Assembly: GCA_963969345.1 (NCBI GenBank)
Contig: OZ017770.1
Location: 8,875,246-8,939,245, forward strand
Length of the DNA: 64,000 nt
Direction: 5' to 3'
From: Turbatrix aceti
Lineage: Eukaryota; Nematoda; Chromadorea; Rhabditida; Panagrolaimidae
Shown: positions 224 to 36,770 of the stretch, piece by piece
Position numbering within the stretch: the stretch's first letter is position 1
Layout: every line of letters begins with the position of its first letter
Notes under the pieces: generated by a model
Database searches by the model: none
What the model was told of the DNA's origin: nothing
The model's input: only the letters and a program-made list of their open reading frames with translations
Program-made: the position numbers and the translations under genes

Positions 224-3200
224 TTCGGTTCTTCTCAGTTGGAAAAAAAAAATGTTTTTTTTTGCAAATTTTTTAATCGTAATAAAAAATGTGATCATTG
301 TTTGTATAGTATTTTTTTTAACGTTTAATCATTTTTAAACGTTTTTTTTTAATGCCAGATTGATTTGTGCAATGTTATATAAAATAAACCAAACATACCT
401 ATTGTTGCAATCCAGGATGTCGTTTTCAATAGTAACGCCGAGTCATCCATCGTCACTTATTCGGGCAGCAATACATAAAATAAGATGCACCCCAACAAGC
501 CACGACTGATCACTGAGGTTGCCACTTATTTGTTTTTCTGAACTCATATGTACGGTAAATTATTAGGTACTTGCACAGCTGCAGTAAATAAATTATGCAG
601 CTCTGCAAGGACCAAATGATTATTCCCGTACAAAAAAGTTTAAAAACATTTTCACCATGACATGCCATCGGTCGCTACTTCTCCAAGATGCAATTATAAA
701 AAAAGGCTTCTGATCACCGCACCAGGCAACAGGTCACACTGACCTCAACAGCGAAGAACGAAATCAAAAAAATGAACGATGACCGAGCGAGCACATCATC
801 CCAGTCGTTGTCTGCGAGTTGCTTTTTTATTTCTGGAGCGTGTGCAGTCAAATGACTGGCTCACGAATAACAACCGGGCGGCAAAAAACAACCGTGTGCT
901 TAAAGCTTAGGGGATTGCCTGAAAACACGCGATTTGCTAAAATAACCTTTCTTTCACAGCGGGATGCCTTCTAGTCTACCGTGTTTACTTTGGTATTTTT
1001 AATAAAGTCGTTAATGCTCTAATAAGAATTTTTCGATTTTTACCGTGCTAATATTTTTTCTTTCTTTCGTTTGTAAGCCGACGACTAGTTCCGGCCACAA
1101 CCTACACTCTAGCCACTTTGAATCGATGTTTTTCTTTTTGCCCAGTGCTTTGATCAGTCGGTACTTTACTGTTTCCATATTTTTTTTGGCGACGGTTAAG
1201 TAACGACTGATAACTCACCGTGGCATACATACTATATATATTTACAAGAAAGTGACAAAAATTAAAAATAAAATGTTGGTATTTGTTATTTTTTGGTTAA
1301 AACTTCCACAGCTGCTGACCAAACAAGCCGACCTTTTTCACAACCGTTGCTTGTTCACCAAAACAAGCCAAAAAGATGTCTGGATCTATCAGAACAGAAC
1401 TCGGCTTGGCGGCTGCCCTTCTGAACCGACACTTTGAGAACTAGACACAACTCTACACCTCCAGATGTACAGATATACCTCACGCACGAAACCAGCTCAG
1501 CAGTTTTGGTTTTGATTTCAGGTGATTTATATCCTTGTTTTTGATTTCAAGTGATCGCTTGAGATAAGTAAAAAATGCACAGCAGTCAAATTTTGGAGGA
1601 TGTAGGTTGATTAATAAGTTTTTGGGAAAACTCTATTGCAGGCAAAACTCAGATACAGCGCCTAAAGACTCAGAAAAACGTCGGCGAAAATGGCACAAAT
1701 TTTTTGCCGTTTTCGGGGGTGGGTGAATCACTGAATAAGGGTTTCTGCTGACCATGGATCAAATCCTGGTTCTGCAGAATGTACTAACCTTGTCTTAAAT
1801 AACTTAAAATTTAAAAAAAAATGTTTACACACACCATGCCAGTTATATTTTTAGAATGGGGGGTGTTCACGAACGGTGGAATGCGTGGCCCCCAGAAACG
1901 TTTTTGTTCTATTTTTTTTTGGGAAAAATATGACTTTCGATTTTTTTTTCGTTTTTCTCAGCTTATCGGCAAAAATGCTCTAAGTTTTTTACTGTTTTTG
2001 GAGGAAAAGTAATGTCGATGCTTCTGCAGAATACTACCAATATCGTTTATTTTTAACTGATCAAAAAAAATCATAGATATTCAACGAATTTACCCGGCAA
2101 GCTAAGCTCTATTCTCTGCTCTTACATAAAAAAATTTTCCAAATCGAGACTTGTTGCAATGATTCACACTATTGCGAGTTAATTTGTCAACTTTTTGGTG
2201 CGTGGCTATGCAAACTCACATTCAACAATCGTTTACCTTTGCGGAGTATTGGCGAACAAACAACACAGATCTTAAATATACATTGCGATCATTGACTTGT
2301 TCCAAAACTAAATATTAATTGCAACAAAAAAATGCTGTAAATCAGAAAAAAAGAATTTTGTAAGTGACTTCGCCTTTTTTTGTTATGTTTTACGTTATGA
2401 TAATAAATATAAATACAGGCAAATGGTGACAAATTAGACGTTGAAATATTTTTTTTAAGTTTGGGTGACTTCACAACACATGTAGCATATTTAGCAAACA
2501 CATTTTTTTGACAAAAACGACATGCAGCCTAAATTAGCATGTACCGATGTTTATTTTACATTTTTTTGTCTCTTTGTTTTTTTTCTGAAGACACTAAATC
2601 CTTATAAGTGTTAGTCGTTGACATACAAATGTGTCCTCGTCTTTTGTTTTACGAAGAAGAGCCAGGTGAGTGTGATCTGCTAATTGGCGTGAAATAAAGG
2701 CGGAGTTGATGTTTCTCGAACGTGGTCGCGCAAAGACGAGGGAGAGACTTGTTCGGGTTTTTCGAACAAATAGAAAAGCCTTTATTCATTTGCTTGACTG
2801 CGACTCTTCTCGCAACTGGTCACTCCGCACAGTTTTGCGCCACACCGAGTAAGTTTATCGTGTGTGTGTGTGTGTGTGTGTGTTGAAAATTGTTTGACTC
2901 ATTTCATTGACCGAAACAGTTTGATTGGAATCCGGTCAGTTATTGTTACTGATGCGGAAGCCTGTTTGCACATTAATGTTTATGCTCTGACCTGCATTTC
3001 GTTCCTCACTTCATCACTTGTTCCAACTGTTTTTTTTACCAGCTCTCCCTCCCCCCGGGGATGATGATCCCTTCACCTACCCTCCTTCTTTCCCAGGTTG
3101 CTCTCTGTACCCGGATACGCTCAGTACTCCGTTCCGGGGGCAGTATAGTGTCGCACTGTTTCATACCTGTCTGACAGTGATTGTGCAGTGGTTTTATATC

Positions 3201-26364: not shown

Positions 26365-26555
26365 CAGTGTTGTCGGTTCTGAAAATTTTTCGGGTATCCG
26401 GAACCGAAACCGGAACCGAAAATAAATTTTTCAGGTACTCGGAACCGGAATCGGAACCGAAAGTAGAAAATTTGGGTACCCGAACCGTAACCGAACCGAA
26501 ACCGAAAAACCGAACCGGAATCGAAAATTAATTCTTCGGGTACCCGACAACACTG
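26365..26555. mobile_element. hAT-type MITE 1 (191 bp)
   Basis: Begins CAGTGTTGTCGG and ends CCGACAACACTG, perfect 12-bp terminal inverted repeats with the CA-N-TG form typical of hAT elements. Flanking 8-bp target duplications are atggtaaa (26357-26364) and atgataaa (26556-26563), 7 of 8 matching; 8 bp is the hAT target size. The interior is an array of degenerate ggaaccggaaccgaaa units with no coding capacity. Confidence 0.85.
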
Positions 26556-27132: not shown

Positions 27133-27303
27133 GTAACCGATAAACTTTACCCCAAGATAGCAGTCTTCGACAACCAAAACGTCCGATCCGGCGTTATTCA
27201 AACCTGTAACGGCGCCAAGGTCCATCGTTACGAATTTTCCATCGACGGCGTGACTCCCAAGGGCATGCAAAGGCGTTCGGTGCTTATCAGAACACAGAAA
27301 CAT
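27133..27303 (+). pseudogene. Argonaute first-exon fragment
   Basis: An acceptor (gtgtttttag, ending at 27132) is followed by 57 open codons and a GTGAGT donor. The translation aligns with exon 1 of the intact Argonaute at 32624-32784, most clearly at the shared pattern ...Y-x-F/V-x-IDGV and the R-R that follows it. It lies immediately left of the inverted repeat, and its downstream intron ends exactly where the left arm begins, so the arm is fused to it as exon 2. Confidence 0.65.
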
Positions 27304-27759
27304 GTGAGTTTTTGCAATTACACCCAGTTTTCAATATTGTTTCATGATTTTTAGTAATTAGGGGGGTTGCAAACAGTCAACGGCCTTGTACGAAGTTATC
27401 AACTTGTTGTTCACGGAGAATAAATGGCCGTTGACGGCAGTATATGACAACTGCTCCATACTGTACACCCCGAATCCGCTGCCGGACATATTCGATACCG
27501 TTTTTGAACGGGTACAGACACCTAAAGAAATCAATCATGATTTCTTTAACGGCCTCTCGCAGGTCGGGGTGGTAAGTTCTCCAATCGCCGTCCTCCAGCT
27601 CGACGACCCCGAGCACCAAAAAATGGACAACTTTGGCAGTGTCGATGTCAGCCTGACTTCTTTCCTCGAGCTGCTTACAACGCAGCCTCTAATCAACAAA
27701 GAAGCCTGCGACTTGAAGCTTCTCAACTGACGTTTACGACACAGCCAACAAAAAAGCGG

Positions 27760-27855
27760 TGACACTCAAAAAAATCAACCACGATTTTTTTATGTGCCTG
27801 ATGTATGTCATCGTCAGCATCTCGCTGATCGCCGTTCTTGATTTCGTTGAGCTTA
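27760..27855 (+). pseudogene. Second Argonaute exon-2 fragment inside the left arm
   Basis: A further piece of the same Argonaute region follows the first within the arm. The translation reads KINHDFFMC, then a hydrophobic run and LIAVLDFVEL, parallel to EINHDFFNG.. of the intact gene and of the preceding fragment. It is mirrored in the right arm (about 28315-28410). Confidence 0.6.
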
Positions 27856-27884
27856 ATAGTAAGTCTTGCGCATCTGTGTTTTTT

Positions 27885-27973
27885 TCAAGTGCGTAGGTCT
27901 GCGAGACCTATTATCAAGCTCAACGATTTCGCTTTGACGGCTTTAAGTTTGTTCAAATGTGTTTAATTCTGGG
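27885..27973 (+). pseudogene. Argonaute PAZ-region fragment in the spacer
   Basis: The translation VCETYYQAQRFRFDGF matches VCKTYHQARRLRFDGF in exon 3 of the intact Argonaute. It is followed by a GTGAGT donor at about the same place as in the intact gene. It belongs to the single-copy side of the inverted repeat. Confidence 0.65.
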
Positions 27974-28819
27974 TGAGTATATTTTCTGATTGAAAACAAC
28001 ATTTGTTTTGTATTTTTTTAGGATCTCGTGTACACGCAGTGCGCAACGAACCTCCGACTCGCCAACAGAAACGAACGCGGGCAACAAAACTTTTCCCGAA
28101 AATGATCGACAAAAAGAGTTACAATTCGCACAGCAAGTTTTTAAGACTTCCAAACTCGTGAATTGTAAGCTTGTTTTCAGAATTGAAACGAAATTGACGT
28201 ACTGCCGCAGCATCTGTGCTACGAAGAAATCTGATCCGTCAAAGCGAGTCGTTCGGCTTGATAGTGTGTCTGGCAGACCCGTGAACTTTTATACAAGCAC
28301 AGGTAGGCAAGACCTATTATCAAGCTCAACGAGTTCAAGAACGGCGATCAGCGAGATGCAGACGATGACATACATCAGGCCCATAAAAAAATCGTGGTTT
28401 TTTTTTATGAGTGTCACCACTCTTTTGTTGGCTGTGTCGTAAACGTCAGTTGAGAAGCTTCAAGTCGCAGGCTTCTTTGTTGATTAGAGGCTGCGTTGTA
28501 AGCAGCTCGAGGAAAGAAGTCAGGCTGACATCGACACTGCCAAAGTTGTCCATTTTTTGGTGCTCGGGGTCGTCGAGCTGGAGGACGGCGATTGGAGAAC
28601 TTACCACCCCGACCTGCGAGAGGCCGTTAAAGAAATCATGATTGATTTCTTTAGGTGTCTGTACCCGTTCAAAAACGGTATCGAATATGTCCGGCAGCGG
28701 ATTCGGGGTGTACAGTATGGAGCAGTTGTCATATACTGCCGTCAACGGCCATTTATTCTCCGTGAACAACAAGTTGATAACTTCGTACAAGGCCGTTGAC
28801 TGTTTGCAACCCCCCTAAT

Positions 28820-29083
28820 GCTTCTGTTAACTTGATTTTTTTGATTGTAATGTGATTTGCTTTATTTGTGTGTACGTTATAAATTTCTGTGATCTACTTT
28901 TGTGTACCATAACTTCAACTACCAGCTATCAGCCTTGTTGCTGGTTGTAACAGTTACTTTATTTTTCACATCCAGCTAACCTTAATATCTAGCTTTTGTT
29001 AGTGCTTTCACATCTTTTCATAAAAAATTGGTAAAAATCGGTTTAATGAAAAATAGTTTTTTGTGCGTCAACTGAAACACGGT
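28820..29083. other. Spacer between inverted repeat and MITE 2
   Basis: No coding signal. The last 8 bases are the target duplication of MITE 2. Confidence 0.5.
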
Positions 29084-29495
29084 CAGGGTTGTCAGTTCTG
29101 AAAATTTTTCGGGTACTCGAACCGGAGCCGAAATCCTGTTTTTTTGCGTACTCAGAACCGGAACCGGAACCGAAAATGGTCTTTTCGGGTATTCGGAACC
29201 GGAACCGAAAGTAGAAAATTCGAGTACCCGAACCAGAACCGAAACGGAACTTTTCAAACCGCGTGCGAAACAAAATTTGAAGGATTTTGGTGTCAAAAGT
29301 GTTTAAAAACAAGAAAAATGCTTTAATTATGAACTTATAACCGACTTCTAAGCGTTTTTTTTTCATTCTAAGAGCTCGTTTTTTCCATAATTTGAACTCA
29401 TTTTTAAAATCCGGGTACCCGGAACCGGAACCGAAAATATATTTTTTTGGGTACCCGGAACCGGCCGGTTCCGGTCCGGGTACCCGACAACACTG
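29084..29495. mobile_element. hAT-type MITE 2 (412 bp)
   Basis: Left end CAGGGTTGTCAG and right end CCGACAACACTG are imperfect copies of the MITE 1 termini. The 8-bp target duplications are aacacggt (29076-29083) and aacactgt (29496-29503), 7 of 8 matching. The interior has the same ggaaccggaaccgaaa units plus about 160 bp of unrelated sequence in the middle, so it is a longer relative of MITE 1. Its own target duplication shows that it and MITE 1 inserted independently. Confidence 0.85.
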
Positions 29496-29503
29496 AACAC
29501 TGT

Positions 29504-30359
29504 TTATTATCTGCAAACTTATGCGTAAAATTGTGTCAACTTTCGTTGACTTCCAATGCTTATTGCCATGCGTTGGCCATCACTGCATACTTTCAAGTTC
29601 ATGATCAGGTGCGTTTGCAGGTGTACTACATTTGTCGTGACACGTGTGGCACCATGGAATCTACTAGTTATTCCAGGTATGCTTTCACTCTAACGAGATG
29701 AACAAAGGATTTTAAAAAAATATCTAAAAGAAAGACAGCTGGCAGGAACTCGTCAAAATTGCTCCTTTGGTCGAGAATGTTAATCATGGATGTGTGAACA
29801 AGAAATCCCCCTTTCAGGGGTTTTTTTCATTCGAGAATAAACACAAACATTGTGATAAATTGATTTGAAGAATAAAAAAAAGCAAGAACATTATTGATCA
29901 TGTTCGAGAACAAACAGTAATTTCAGGTAACTGCCTGTTAAAGGATAAAGTTGAGAAAAGTTGAGATAAGCCATTTTTTGTCAAACGACATTGCTTTTGA
30001 TCCCCATTTTTTTATTTTATTTGTTAGGAAAATTTAGTCCTGTTCACGGACGAAAGCAAACGTCTGCTCCCCCGTGATGTCTGCAAAAAAAATTAGTCTC
30101 GTTCTAGAATAAAAGGTTTGTTCTATCGCTCACAGAATGATAATCACAAGCATACCTCATTGTATGGGCATCGCCGGTCGTTCGTTCCTCATGTTCGCTG
30201 CAGTTATGACTCATCCTAATCGCGCAGATGAGGAGAAAAACCGAGTTGCTGTCGAGCTGTTTTGCATTTTTGTCTTTTTGTCTTTTGTCCGTCTGATTGA
30301 ACCGTTCCCGCGTCTTTTCTAATTTTGTTGGTCAAAAATATTTCATATGTTCCATCATT
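29504..30359. other. Intergenic region, no gene recognised
   Basis: Short frames only, such as 29447-29701 and 30137-30322, without splice support or recognisable motifs. Confidence 0.45.
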
Positions 30360-30800
30360 TCCTGTTTATTATAATCCTGTTTCAAAAGCTACCTTTACCA
30401 TGTGGAGTATGAAGCATTTCTTGGCCTGTAAGTGTATAGTGATCATGACCGAATTCGTGCTCGCAATTTTCGGGTAGACCAATGACGTTGTACTTTTTGG
30501 CTGTGTGAACTAAATAGACGCGCAACTCCTAATCCCCCCGGCATAGATGATATTTTTCATGTTTTGGTCAGTGTTGACGTTTTCGTCTGTTAGAATGTCG
30601 TAGAGGTGATTTAATTTTTTTGGCGGTAAAAATCTCAGGTTTTGTCAGTGACATGCGTGTTGTTGTTTTTTTTCTTGCTCAGCTTGGCCTCTATGTCGTA
30701 AAAATTAGCGTAGAAAACGTCGGATGCAGAATCTAGCACGCTGTTGTGTGCTTGATTTTTGACCTCATGTTGGCTGCTTTCTTTTTTTGAGAACACGAAG
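30360..30800 (-). pseudogene. Unknown multicopy family, copy 1 (degenerate)
   Basis: Read on the minus strand, short conserved blocks occur in the same order as in the other copies: DVFVFSK, KNQAHN, a D.L.T(D/N)E block, then YLVHTAKKYNVIGLP and EHEFGHDHYTLTGQEM. The last block is histidine-rich. Frames shift between blocks and stops interrupt them. I do not recognise the family. Confidence 0.5.
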
Positions 30801-32623: not shown

Positions 32624-35600
32624 ATGTCGATCGACTTCTCTGGACACGACCAAGGATTCTCAAATCTCTTCTCCCTACGCATCCGGAAGGAAGCCAAAGT
32701 TTTCAAGTACACCGTTGCCATCGACGGCGTTGCGTTCAATGGCAGGCGGAGGTCGTTCACAACGCACCAAGACTCTGGACTCCCGTGAGTTTTTGCGATT
32801 ATTCATTTTTTTCAACATTTTTGCTTATTTTTTTAGCATCTACGGAGGATTCGAGAAGTCAAGAGCCCTTTACTACTTAATGAATTACGTGTTTGCTGTT
32901 AACAGCTGGCCGGTGACGGCATTGTATGATAACTGCTCCGTGCTATATACACCAAATCCACTTCCCGGTCTCTACATGGATTATTATGAAAAAAGCTTTC
33001 TAACAACAGAAATTAATCACGATTTTTTTAACGGCCTCTCACAGGTCGTGGTGGTGATTTCCGCGAGTGCAATTTTCAACCTCGACAACTACCAGCATCG
33101 TCGCACAGACAGCTTTGAAGTCGTCGACGAAAGCCTTACATCTTTCCTCGAACTACTCACGACGCAGCCCCTCATCGACCAGTAAGTATCTTCCTGAAAC
33201 TTTTCAGTTGATGAATATGCACATTGTTTTTTTTGCAGATTCGGTTTTGACAAGACGACTCTTCGGAACATCGTTTCTCCAGAAGTTGTCAAAACAAACG
33301 ATTTTGGCGTCCATTTCAAGCTCGAGGTCACGAAGGGCGTCAATCTTTGCCAGCCTGACGAGGGAAAGCAGGATCCTGATTTCAAAGTGGGTCTCGACGT
33401 TCGCATTTCGGCGTACTACGAATCCGCCAGCTTCGCGACTGTATTCCGCCGATACCTCTCGTGCTACGCCACGGGATCTTCAATGCCCTACGTCGAATTT
33501 ACGAACGTCTTCAAGGGTGTTCGGGTCTGCAAGACCTACCACCAAGCTCGCCGACTTCGATTTGACGGCTTTACGCCAGATGCCATTGGTTCTCAAGTGT
33601 GAGTTTACTTTTTTTTGGAGCGAAAAAACATTTGTCTTCTTTTTTTTAGCATCCGGACAGATGCAGGCGACGAGATTTCCCACGAGGCATACTTCGCCGA
33701 GAAGTACGGCATCAAGGTCGACGGTTCGCTTCGCGCTGTCAAGGTCTCCTTCGGTAACGCTGCGATGATCATACCTGTGGAGGCGTTGATGATCTGCCCC
33801 TACCAGCGCTTTCCGAGAGATCGCTACTCTCACATCTCGGGCGATTTCCAAACCCAGCTGTTGAGGGTTTGTCTCTTTTGCTTTGTCGAAACGGCTATTT
33901 TCCTATTTGCAGGAGAATGTGATGAGGCCAGAAGTACGGAAAGCTCGTATCGATAAGGTCGCCCAGTATCTCTTCAATTCGAGTACCTTCTTCGAGGAAT
34001 TTCATGTCAAATTGATTCCGGATTCAAACAGAGTATGTATTTTCAACTTTTTTTTTCATTTTTAAAGTGCAAAAAATTTTCAGATTTCCTTCAACATTTG
34101 TCGTCCTCCCCATGCTGGCGATCAGGCCCGCGACTTCGGCAAGTTCCAGGTAAACCGCTACGTCAACGCCGCCATGGCCCGTCGAATCGTGATCGTATAC
34201 TTCCCCTCCATCCCTCAAAACGTCCTCCAGTGAGTTTTACATGATTTCAGAGCCTATTTTCTTTGTTTGATTTTTTATAGGCAGCTCACGAACCAGCTCT
34301 ACGAGTATGCCAAGCGGAAGGGCATGACGTTTCCTCGGAGCAACCCGTCCTACGAGCCTTTCGACAACACTCGCGCCGATCTTTTCAAGTGGCGTGAATT
34401 TTTTGAACGGATTTCTGACACGTCGCCCAGCATCGTCATCTACATCGACCACAAGAGTCACGACTCCCACAGTAAGATTTTCATAATTTCAAATTTGTTT
34501 ATCTTTTGCAATTTTCAGACACGCTCAAACTGATGGAACACGAATTCGACGTTCTGACTCAGCATCTGTGCGTCGAAACGATTTCGAAGCGCATCGGCGG
34601 GCAAACCCTGGAGAATATCCTGAATAAGATGAACGAGAAGCTGGGTGGCACGAATTACGCTGTACGACCGAGGTTGGTTTTTTTGTTTCGTCGTTGATTG
34701 TGGCCTAAAACAAGTTTTGTATTGCAGCTTCGAAACCGATTACGGACTCGAGAAAGATCGCACTTTCTTTATCGGATACGACGTCTCGCACCCGTCCCCC
34801 TCCAGCTCGGAAATCCAACACGCTCGTTCGCTCGGGTTGCGATCACTTCACCCGTCGACTGTTGGTATTTCGGCCAATGCTGCCAAAGGAAAATACAGTT
34901 TCCTCGGAAACTACTTCTACCAAGAAAGCCGCAGCGAGGCTGTCGACGGTGGGATGCTCAAGAAAACCGTGAAGCAACTACTCACCATCCGCCATGCAAA
35001 CCGCCCGGGTGTTGCTGCGCCGGAATACGTCTTTATCCTTCGAGACGGTGTCAGCGAGGGCCAGTACAAAATGGTAATGGAGCAAGAATTCCCATCCATC
35101 AAGGAAGCCTTTGCGGAATTCTACTCAGAGGTCCAGAACGTCGTCTCCGAAACCCCGAAGTTTGTCACCATGATCGTCACGAAGCGCCACATGAAGCGGT
35201 TTTTCAACAAAAGCGGTGGCAACGTCGATATCAATTCATGCATGAGCGCAGGCGTCGCGAAGGGAAACGCGGATTCATACCTGACTGTTTCCGCTCGCCC
35301 GATCATGGTTGGTTTTTTATTTATTTTTTCGCTTTTATTTGTATCATTTTTTTTCACTTTTAGGGTACTGCGAAGCCTCCCGAATACACGGTTCTTCACA
35401 ACGAAACCGAAAGCGATATGACGTCCATCCGGGCTACGGTGCACAGCTTGTGCTCGGGCCATCAAATTATCACCTCTCCGGTCAGCCTCCCCGAACCAGT
35501 CTTTGTGGCTCACGAATTGGCGAAACGAGGAGCGAACAATCTGAAGGCTCTCATTCAGCACGAAGCGGAAATGCTGACAATGGAAAATGGCCTGTACGAT

Positions 35601-35669
35601 GTCCAGGAATTGACGCAAAAACTGAGTTACTCAGAACGCCAGCTCCTCATGCAACACTTCAACGCTTAG
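32624..35669 (+). CDS. Argonaute protein, nematode type, with intact slicer residues
   Basis: Ten exons: 32624-32784, 32837-33181, 33239-33598, 33650-33866, 33913-34032, 34084-34229, 34281-34471, 34519-34672, 34728-35307, 35364-35669, giving 859 residues. The N-terminal and linker region spans exons 1-2, PAZ about exons 3-4, MID about exons 5-8 and PIWI exons 9-10. PIWI shows FFIGYDVSHP (Asp583), FILRDGVSEGQY (Asp671) and VFVAHELAKRG (His808). A glutamate at 631 or 635 could fill the fourth position, so the DEDH set looks complete. Also seen are TMIVTKRHMKRFF and GTAKPPEY, wording typical of the nematode-expanded Argonautes. Most WAGO-type Argonautes lack the catalytic residues, so the complete set points to a slicing member (CSR-1-like rather than WAGO), though subclade assignment needs a tree. 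Role: guide-RNA-directed silencing. Confidence 0.93.
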
Positions 35670-36264: not shown

Positions 36265-36770
36265 TCGCTGACCAGAAATATATTGTTTGTTGCATCATTT
36301 TCTGATTATCAATAATGCCGTTTCGAAAGCTTTGTTTTCCATGTGAAAAAGGAAGCTTTGTTTTCCATTTTTGGACTATGAGTGACCAGTGATCATGGAA
36401 GAACTCATTCGCGCTTGCGGCTTTTGCGCAGACCAATGACATGTACTTTTTGGCAGCAAAAGAGGCTTTATGTACTAAATAGAAGCACAATTCCGAATCT
36501 CACCGGAGTAGAATACTTTTTCCATGATTTGTAAAGTGATTGTTTATTCGTGCGTAGGAAAGTCGTATTGTATAATATAATTTTTTTGCAGGCAAAAATC
36601 TCAGGTTTTATGTCAGTGATGCGCGTTGTCGTTTTTCTCGTTGACTTCTGTGCCGTAAAGCATAGCGTAAAAAAACATTAGAATCAGAAGCCAGTATGCA
36701 ATTGTGCGCTTGATTTTTGATTACATGTTTGTTGTAAATTTTTGATAACACGAAGACATCAGCTAACTGC
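36265..36770 (-). pseudogene. Unknown multicopy family, copy 4 (degenerate)
   Basis: Minus-strand blocks ADVFVLSKIYNKHVIKNQAHN, then YDFPTHE.TITLQIMEKVFYSGEIRNC and a tail near 36300. Each aligns with copies 1 and 3 and is interrupted by stops and frame changes. It lies on the far side of the Argonaute gene from the other three. Confidence 0.5.

Follow-up and report, generated by a model that had tools for sequence, protein, structure and literature searches.

The window, by which we mean the whole 64,000-nucleotide stretch of Turbatrix aceti DNA analysed here, carries an intact Argonaute gene and a palindrome built of Argonaute sequence. The gene lies on the forward strand at 32624-35669, encodes 859 residues with PAZ and Piwi domains, and matches the arms of the palindrome poorly. 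A second Argonaute gene, which proved to be the better guide to the palindrome, is found on the minus strand of another contig (G000:C5, about 7953.9-7957.0 kb). Both gene models were drawn by eye from their mutual alignment, on sequence alone; each has ten exons and 859 residues and is open throughout, and the PAZ and Piwi domains of both score above the Pfam cut-offs. A large protein search with the window's Argonaute returned one protein at E <= 0.001, at 23% identity, and no close relatives.

An inverted-repeat search and a base-by-base comparison place the left arm of the palindrome at 27357-27888 on the forward strand, and the same search, together with a listing of open reading frames, places the right arm at 28288-28819 on the minus strand. 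The arms are 532 nt each, 96% complementary and separated by a spacer of 399 nt; when gaps are allowed, they grow to 585 bp at 94.5% and the spacer shrinks to 295 bp. The original prediction spoke of two arms with about 400 identical base pairs, and this is what we find. The outer 397 bp of the arms (27357-27753) are identical base by base, an exact inverted match that far exceeds chance, and the tract ends at a sharp edge, beyond which the arms diverge by about 14% (19 differences in 135 bp). All 19 mismatches between the arms are thus confined to the inner 135 of the 532 positions, for which an even spread gives P of about 5e-12. A search against Rfam at gathering thresholds found nothing in the 64-kb window.

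What do the arms encode? Each holds an open reading frame (27362-27730 on the forward strand and 28446-28814 on the minus strand), and this frame is, on sequence comparison, exon 2 of an Argonaute gene, because the same exon is present in the two intact Argonaute gene models of the genome, at 86% and 59% protein identity. The two gene models thereby bear out the earlier reading of the arms as Argonaute exon-2 sequence in opposite directions, and they do so where a domain search with the exon alone stays below threshold (Pfam ArgoN, 13.8 bits; cut-off, 30.9). Exon 2 of the left arm (27355-27699, forward strand) agrees with the C5 gene at 291 of 345 bases with zero indels, and the stretch over which the arms are identical corresponds closely to this exon.

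The nearest copy of the arm elsewhere in the assembly is the C5 Argonaute. At the DNA level, a search of the assembly for the arm scored four places: the two arms themselves, C5 (83% over 368 bp) and the window gene (70%). A protein search gave five, adding to these a more distant place on C1 (56%). Over 333 compared bases, the arm shares 281 with C5 (overall, 83-84%) and 218 (65.5%) with the window gene. Neither search, among the places scored, contained a near-identical (>95%) Argonaute paralogue, and we reject such a paralogue as a target, the best other place scored being C5 at 83%. The window's own Argonaute is rejected as well: its coding sequence shares with the arm no exact 16-mer and a longest run of 14 nt (so that the "13 bp or less" given at the outset was right within one base), and none of the 21-, 22- or 26-mers of the left arm is found in it exactly. 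As for the proposal that another paralogue would be the perfect target, C5 is indeed closer than the window gene but, at 83-84%, falls short of the >95% match.

The locus is more than a palindrome. Its homology to C5 comes in pieces that keep the order of the gene: exon 1, intron 1, exon 2, the end of exon 3 and the exon 7/8 region. Outside the palindrome, an exon 1 remnant was read from the listing of open reading frames at 27133-27303 (forward strand), with 68 of 97 bases at 27208-27304 matching C5 exon 1. After it, by eye, stands GTGAGT, and a remnant of intron 1 follows C5 at 34 of 50 bases. The remnant of exon 1 ends in a phase that differs from C5, and a splice from it to exon 2 would run straight into a TAA (also read by eye). 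Exon 2 itself begins with a change from TAC to TAG, a stop at 27359-27361 that is present in both arms, and the splice donor after exon 2 is lost (both by eye in the C5 alignment). Further in, on the forward strand, a translated match reveals a second, strongly diverged partial copy of exon 2 (27729-27845; 67 of 117 bases as in C5), followed by a remnant of the end of exon 3 (27885-27946; 47 of 61 aligned bases) and, within the spacer, by a remnant of the exon 7/intron/exon 8 region (28106-28220; 80 identities over 114 aligned bases; 15 gap columns). Another 43 bp of the spacer (28026-28068, forward strand) recur on C4, at C4:5405961 (98%) and, less exactly, at C4:9652664 (88%). With an intron kept, exons missing and a frame broken relative to an intact paralogue, the locus has the marks of an unprocessed pseudogene. 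It is also an inverted partial gene duplicate, a partial copy that is adjacent and in opposite orientation. Because each arm carries exon 2, then the decayed second exon-2 piece together with small inverted pieces of exon 3, the exon 2 unit had already been rearranged before it was inverted.

Repeat elements lie to either side. One, at 26365-26555 on the forward strand, has inverted ends CAGTGTTGTCGG and an 8-bp near-duplicate flank (7/8, by eye); a second copy of the family, at 29084-29495 (forward strand), has 2 mismatches in one end and its own 8-bp near-duplicate flank (7/8, by eye). The family has at least 66 matches in the genome, with 40 of 132 candidates scored, and its ends and 8-bp flanks make it, we presume, hAT-like. 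Could the palindrome have travelled as the cargo of such a transposon? We reject this, since the repeats on either side are each bounded by two ends and a flank of their own; the element at 26365-26555 is a separate insertion outside the palindrome.

The mismatches between the arms are so unevenly placed that the arms are not one simple fresh duplication. On the sequence, the outer part would have been either homogenised later or copied later. The exact match of about 400 bp was originally ascribed to recent origin, conversion or selection for pairing; gene conversion or recent copying is all that the identity needs, and most of what follows leans against selection for targeting.

The history of exon 2 can be read, in part, from its substitutions. 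Over 113 codons, arm and C5 differ by dN of 0.087 and dS of 0.61 (NG86) or 0.097 and 0.45 (YN00). Changes assigned to the arm (C6) branch number 14 nonsynonymous and 12 synonymous with one outgroup (14 ambiguous) and 11 and 12 with two (19 ambiguous); the corresponding counts for the C5 branch are 4 and 10 and 3 and 7. Neutrality would make 72-77% of changes nonsynonymous, and the arm branch lies below this (P of 0.008-0.038 with one outgroup and 0.002-0.013 with two). There are too few nonsynonymous changes on the arm branch, which points to partial past constraint on the exon as protein. By maximum likelihood, that branch is 0.160 long and the C5 branch 0.035, a ratio of about 4.6. These estimates indicate that exon 2 coded for protein during part of its history and that it has diverged more quickly than C5 since then. 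The longer arm branch is a pattern unlike that of an arm kept complementary to C5, and it speaks, as far as sequence can, against co-evolution with a target.

A transcript of the palindrome would have much to pair with. Folding of 27340-28830 is predicted to give a single long hairpin, with a minimum free energy of -1155 kcal/mol (a value without a shuffle control at this length), so that the inverted repeat is, by prediction, foldable into the long double-stranded RNA of an hpRNA. At siRNA length, perfect complementarity to a separate gene is also present: 32 of 512 21-mers, 29 of 511 22-mers and 20 of 507 26-mers of the left arm occur exactly in the C5 coding sequence. The identical runs behind these counts are 41, 29, 22, 20 and 19 nt long, and the alignment puts predicted perfect-match sites at C5 coding positions 202-242, 322-350, 400-421 and 472-491. 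In principle, then, the locus would be able to work as a hairpin RNA, and the earlier expectations that a transcript would fold into long dsRNA and that arm-derived sequence would match an Argonaute family mRNA both gain support as statements of capacity, the latter through the 41-, 29-, 22- and 20-nt runs. The identity to C5 is also somewhat clustered: the 41-nt run exceeds most shuffles (P = 0.03 with sites shuffled and 0.05 with codons shuffled), and the 29 exact 22-mers compare with a shuffled mean of 8.7 (P = 0.03). This clustering leans weakly toward targeting or co-evolution in the sequence; uneven protein constraint along the exon could also explain it.

The genome holds candidate machinery for such an RNA. 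The Dicer dimerisation domain was found at two loci (G000:C6:6654810-6655073 and G000:C4:11354926-11355189), and a profile search gave 16 matches to the RdRP family. There are 145 exact copies (60 forward and 85 reverse) of a spliced leader that we take to be SL1, and the reversed control has none. A COX1 frame with six internal TGA codons was also found. Together, these leaders, the RdRP and Dicer-domain matches and the COX1 frame mark the genome as that of a nematode.

How did this locus arise, and does it do anything? The likeliest and simplest account, and one that we consider probable, is a rearranged unprocessed Argonaute pseudogene in which an inverted duplicate of the exon-2 unit formed and the arms were later homogenised. 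A C5-related Argonaute copy would have lost most of its exons and suffered a new stop codon and a damaged splice site; exon 2, the decayed second exon-2 piece and the end of exon 3 would, as one unit, have been duplicated, inverted, about 0.3 kb away; and the outer 397 bp of the arms would have been made identical again, most likely via gene conversion between them. Any double-stranded RNA from the locus would be a by-product. The anatomy, the pseudogene marks, the uneven divergence of the arms and the partial past constraint are observations; the order of events and the part given to gene conversion are what we infer. The plain decay of a single pseudogene fits less well, because, relative to C5, exon 2 has kept more of its sequence than exon 1 (Fisher P = 0.003) and is free of indels; such preservation would be predicted if exon 2 had arisen separately and later, or had been under selection. 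The clustering of C5 identity into long runs also sits uneasily with plain decay, and the close fit of the arms' identical tract to exon 2 likewise tells against the account. Misassembly of inverted repeats is possible, and a faulty assembly might have created or distorted this one, but the 19 differences between the inner arms and the unlike flanks are not those of one copy simply mirrored, and the locus lies inside a contig of 11.4 Mb; we regard an artefact as very improbable.

Two further explanations involve small RNAs. In one, the locus is a working hpRNA-like gene, whose hairpin would be cut by Dicer into siRNAs that lower the C5 Argonaute, with amplification by RdRP, in a loop of feedback or of control over a paralogue. 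The predicted hairpin, the exact 22- and 26-mers, the clustering of C5 identity above most shuffles and the Dicer-domain and RdRP loci are as such a model would have them, and in Caenorhabditis elegans, alg-3/4 are themselves regulated by siRNAs, according to excerpts of PMC11381353. But tracking of the target is not seen, the arm branch being the long one, and past constraint on the protein could alone have left the complementarity, clustered in the constrained parts of the exon. We think this explanation unlikely. The original prediction of a hairpin locus aimed at Argonaute is, in other words, supported in its capacity (the fold, the Dicer and RdRP loci and the C5 runs), and its aim is what suffers, given that there is no near-identical target, that the arm branch is the longer one and that the locus bears pseudogene marks. 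The boldest form of the idea, in which an Argonaute exon became a self-homogenising palindrome whose hairpin siRNAs would control the C5 paralogue, so that the RNAi machinery would be regulated by the hairpin of its own pseudogene, we hold to be quite unlikely. By analogy with the targets of ERGO-1/ERI-6/7, the pseudogene might instead be silenced itself, covered by Dicer- and RdRP-dependent endogenous siRNAs with weak effect or none on C5. The RdRP loci of the genome fit this, and the locus is, as those targets are, a duplicated gene or a pseudogene extensively homologous to sequence elsewhere; to us it seems an unlikely reading all the same. The preferred account, of an inverted pseudogene fragment with homogenised arms, would make the locus a clean nematode example of an inverted partial duplicate in which homogenisation stops at a sharp edge. 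Were siRNAs produced, this would be a hairpin RNA in an animal that both descends from an Argonaute gene and is directed against one, with direct feedback within RNAi, and the predicted target (C5) and its matching sites can now be named.

Several known systems stand close to this locus. Newborn gene duplicates of C. elegans, in the excerpts of PMC2728529, frequently lie side by side in opposite orientation, and of the young pairs, about 50% are chimeric or partial; the present locus resembles those described there in being an adjacent, inverted and partial copy of a member of a gene family, and it differs from them in that its identical tract ends abruptly inside the arm and its unit was rearranged before inversion. 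The Drosophila hpRNAs offer what looks, from the excerpts of PMC10317233, like a close architectural precedent: hp58 of Drosophila simulans consists of an inverted exon-2 fragment taken from the gene that it silences, and here, too, there is an inverted exon-2 fragment with stretches fully complementary to a coding gene. Unlike hp58, as it is presented there, the Turbatrix palindrome is known from sequence alone and has its likely target not one gene away but on another chromosome-sized contig. Likeness to the C. elegans ERGO-1/ERI-6/7 targets, as excerpted from PMC3213143, lies in the duplicated family genes and pseudogenes and in the presence here of Dicer-domain and RdRP loci; in the main text of that paper, the word "inverted" occurs once, for terminal inverted repeats, which were not found there. 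Small RNAs that act on Argonaute mRNAs are reported in excerpts of PMC11381353, where the alg-3/4 Argonautes of C. elegans are under siRNA control; PMC4300679 concerns plant miRNAs that target Argonautes. Here such action is only predicted, and those papers, in the excerpts concerned, name no hairpin of Argonaute sequence as the source. Among the titles and abstract beginnings listed by searches of the open PMC literature we found no Argonaute-derived hairpin, which does not imply that none has been described.

Long inverted repeats are not peculiar to the locus. We scanned the window and 65 other loci for inverted repeats (312,173 bases counting overlaps; about 248 kb once redundancy is removed); these loci are not a random sample, having come from searches for Argonaute, SL1, repeats, RdRP, Dicer and COX1 and from chosen places. 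Counted were long inverted repeats at L011/L029 (457 bp, 80.5%) and L019 (207 bp, 90%), as well as long foldbacks at L042 (630 bp, 86%) and L047 (746 bp, 89%), the last with a further inverted repeat of 469 bp (94%). The arm of L019 has 11 matches in the genome and is thus repeat-like. Left out of the count were L037 (287 bp, 72%), the foldbacks at L049 (496 bp, 82%) and L008 (422 bp, 79%), the match of the arm to the window's Argonaute (278 bp, 70%), all rows that were shorter or lower, as well as the repeat array on contig C28; some of these were set aside as likely low-complexity or tandem sequence. Together with the inverted duplicates of C. elegans, the long inverted repeats found elsewhere in these 248 kb make the structure one of a familiar kind. 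One of them belongs to another Argonaute: on C1 (about 10021.5-10024.1 kb of G000:C1; L011 511-1122, forward, and 1402-3039, minus), an open reading frame of 545 aa is followed, just past its 3' end, by an inverted partial Piwi-domain copy (arms of 442 and 457 bp, 80.5%, 697 bp apart), which suggests from sequence that such structures may recur in the Argonaute family.

The two intact genes call for a remark of their own. Between the window's Argonaute and C5, 61 of 97 bases agree in exon 1 and 236 of 345 in exon 2, and from exon 3 onward (33239-35669 in the window), the genes are, by eye, far more alike than in exons 1-2. This may reflect gene conversion between them, to judge from the alignment. 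The flanks of the window's Argonaute, at 30333-30500 and 36273-36453, have a repeat in common (69.8% over 182 bp), and this suggests that the gene is flanked on both sides by copies of a single repeated segment.
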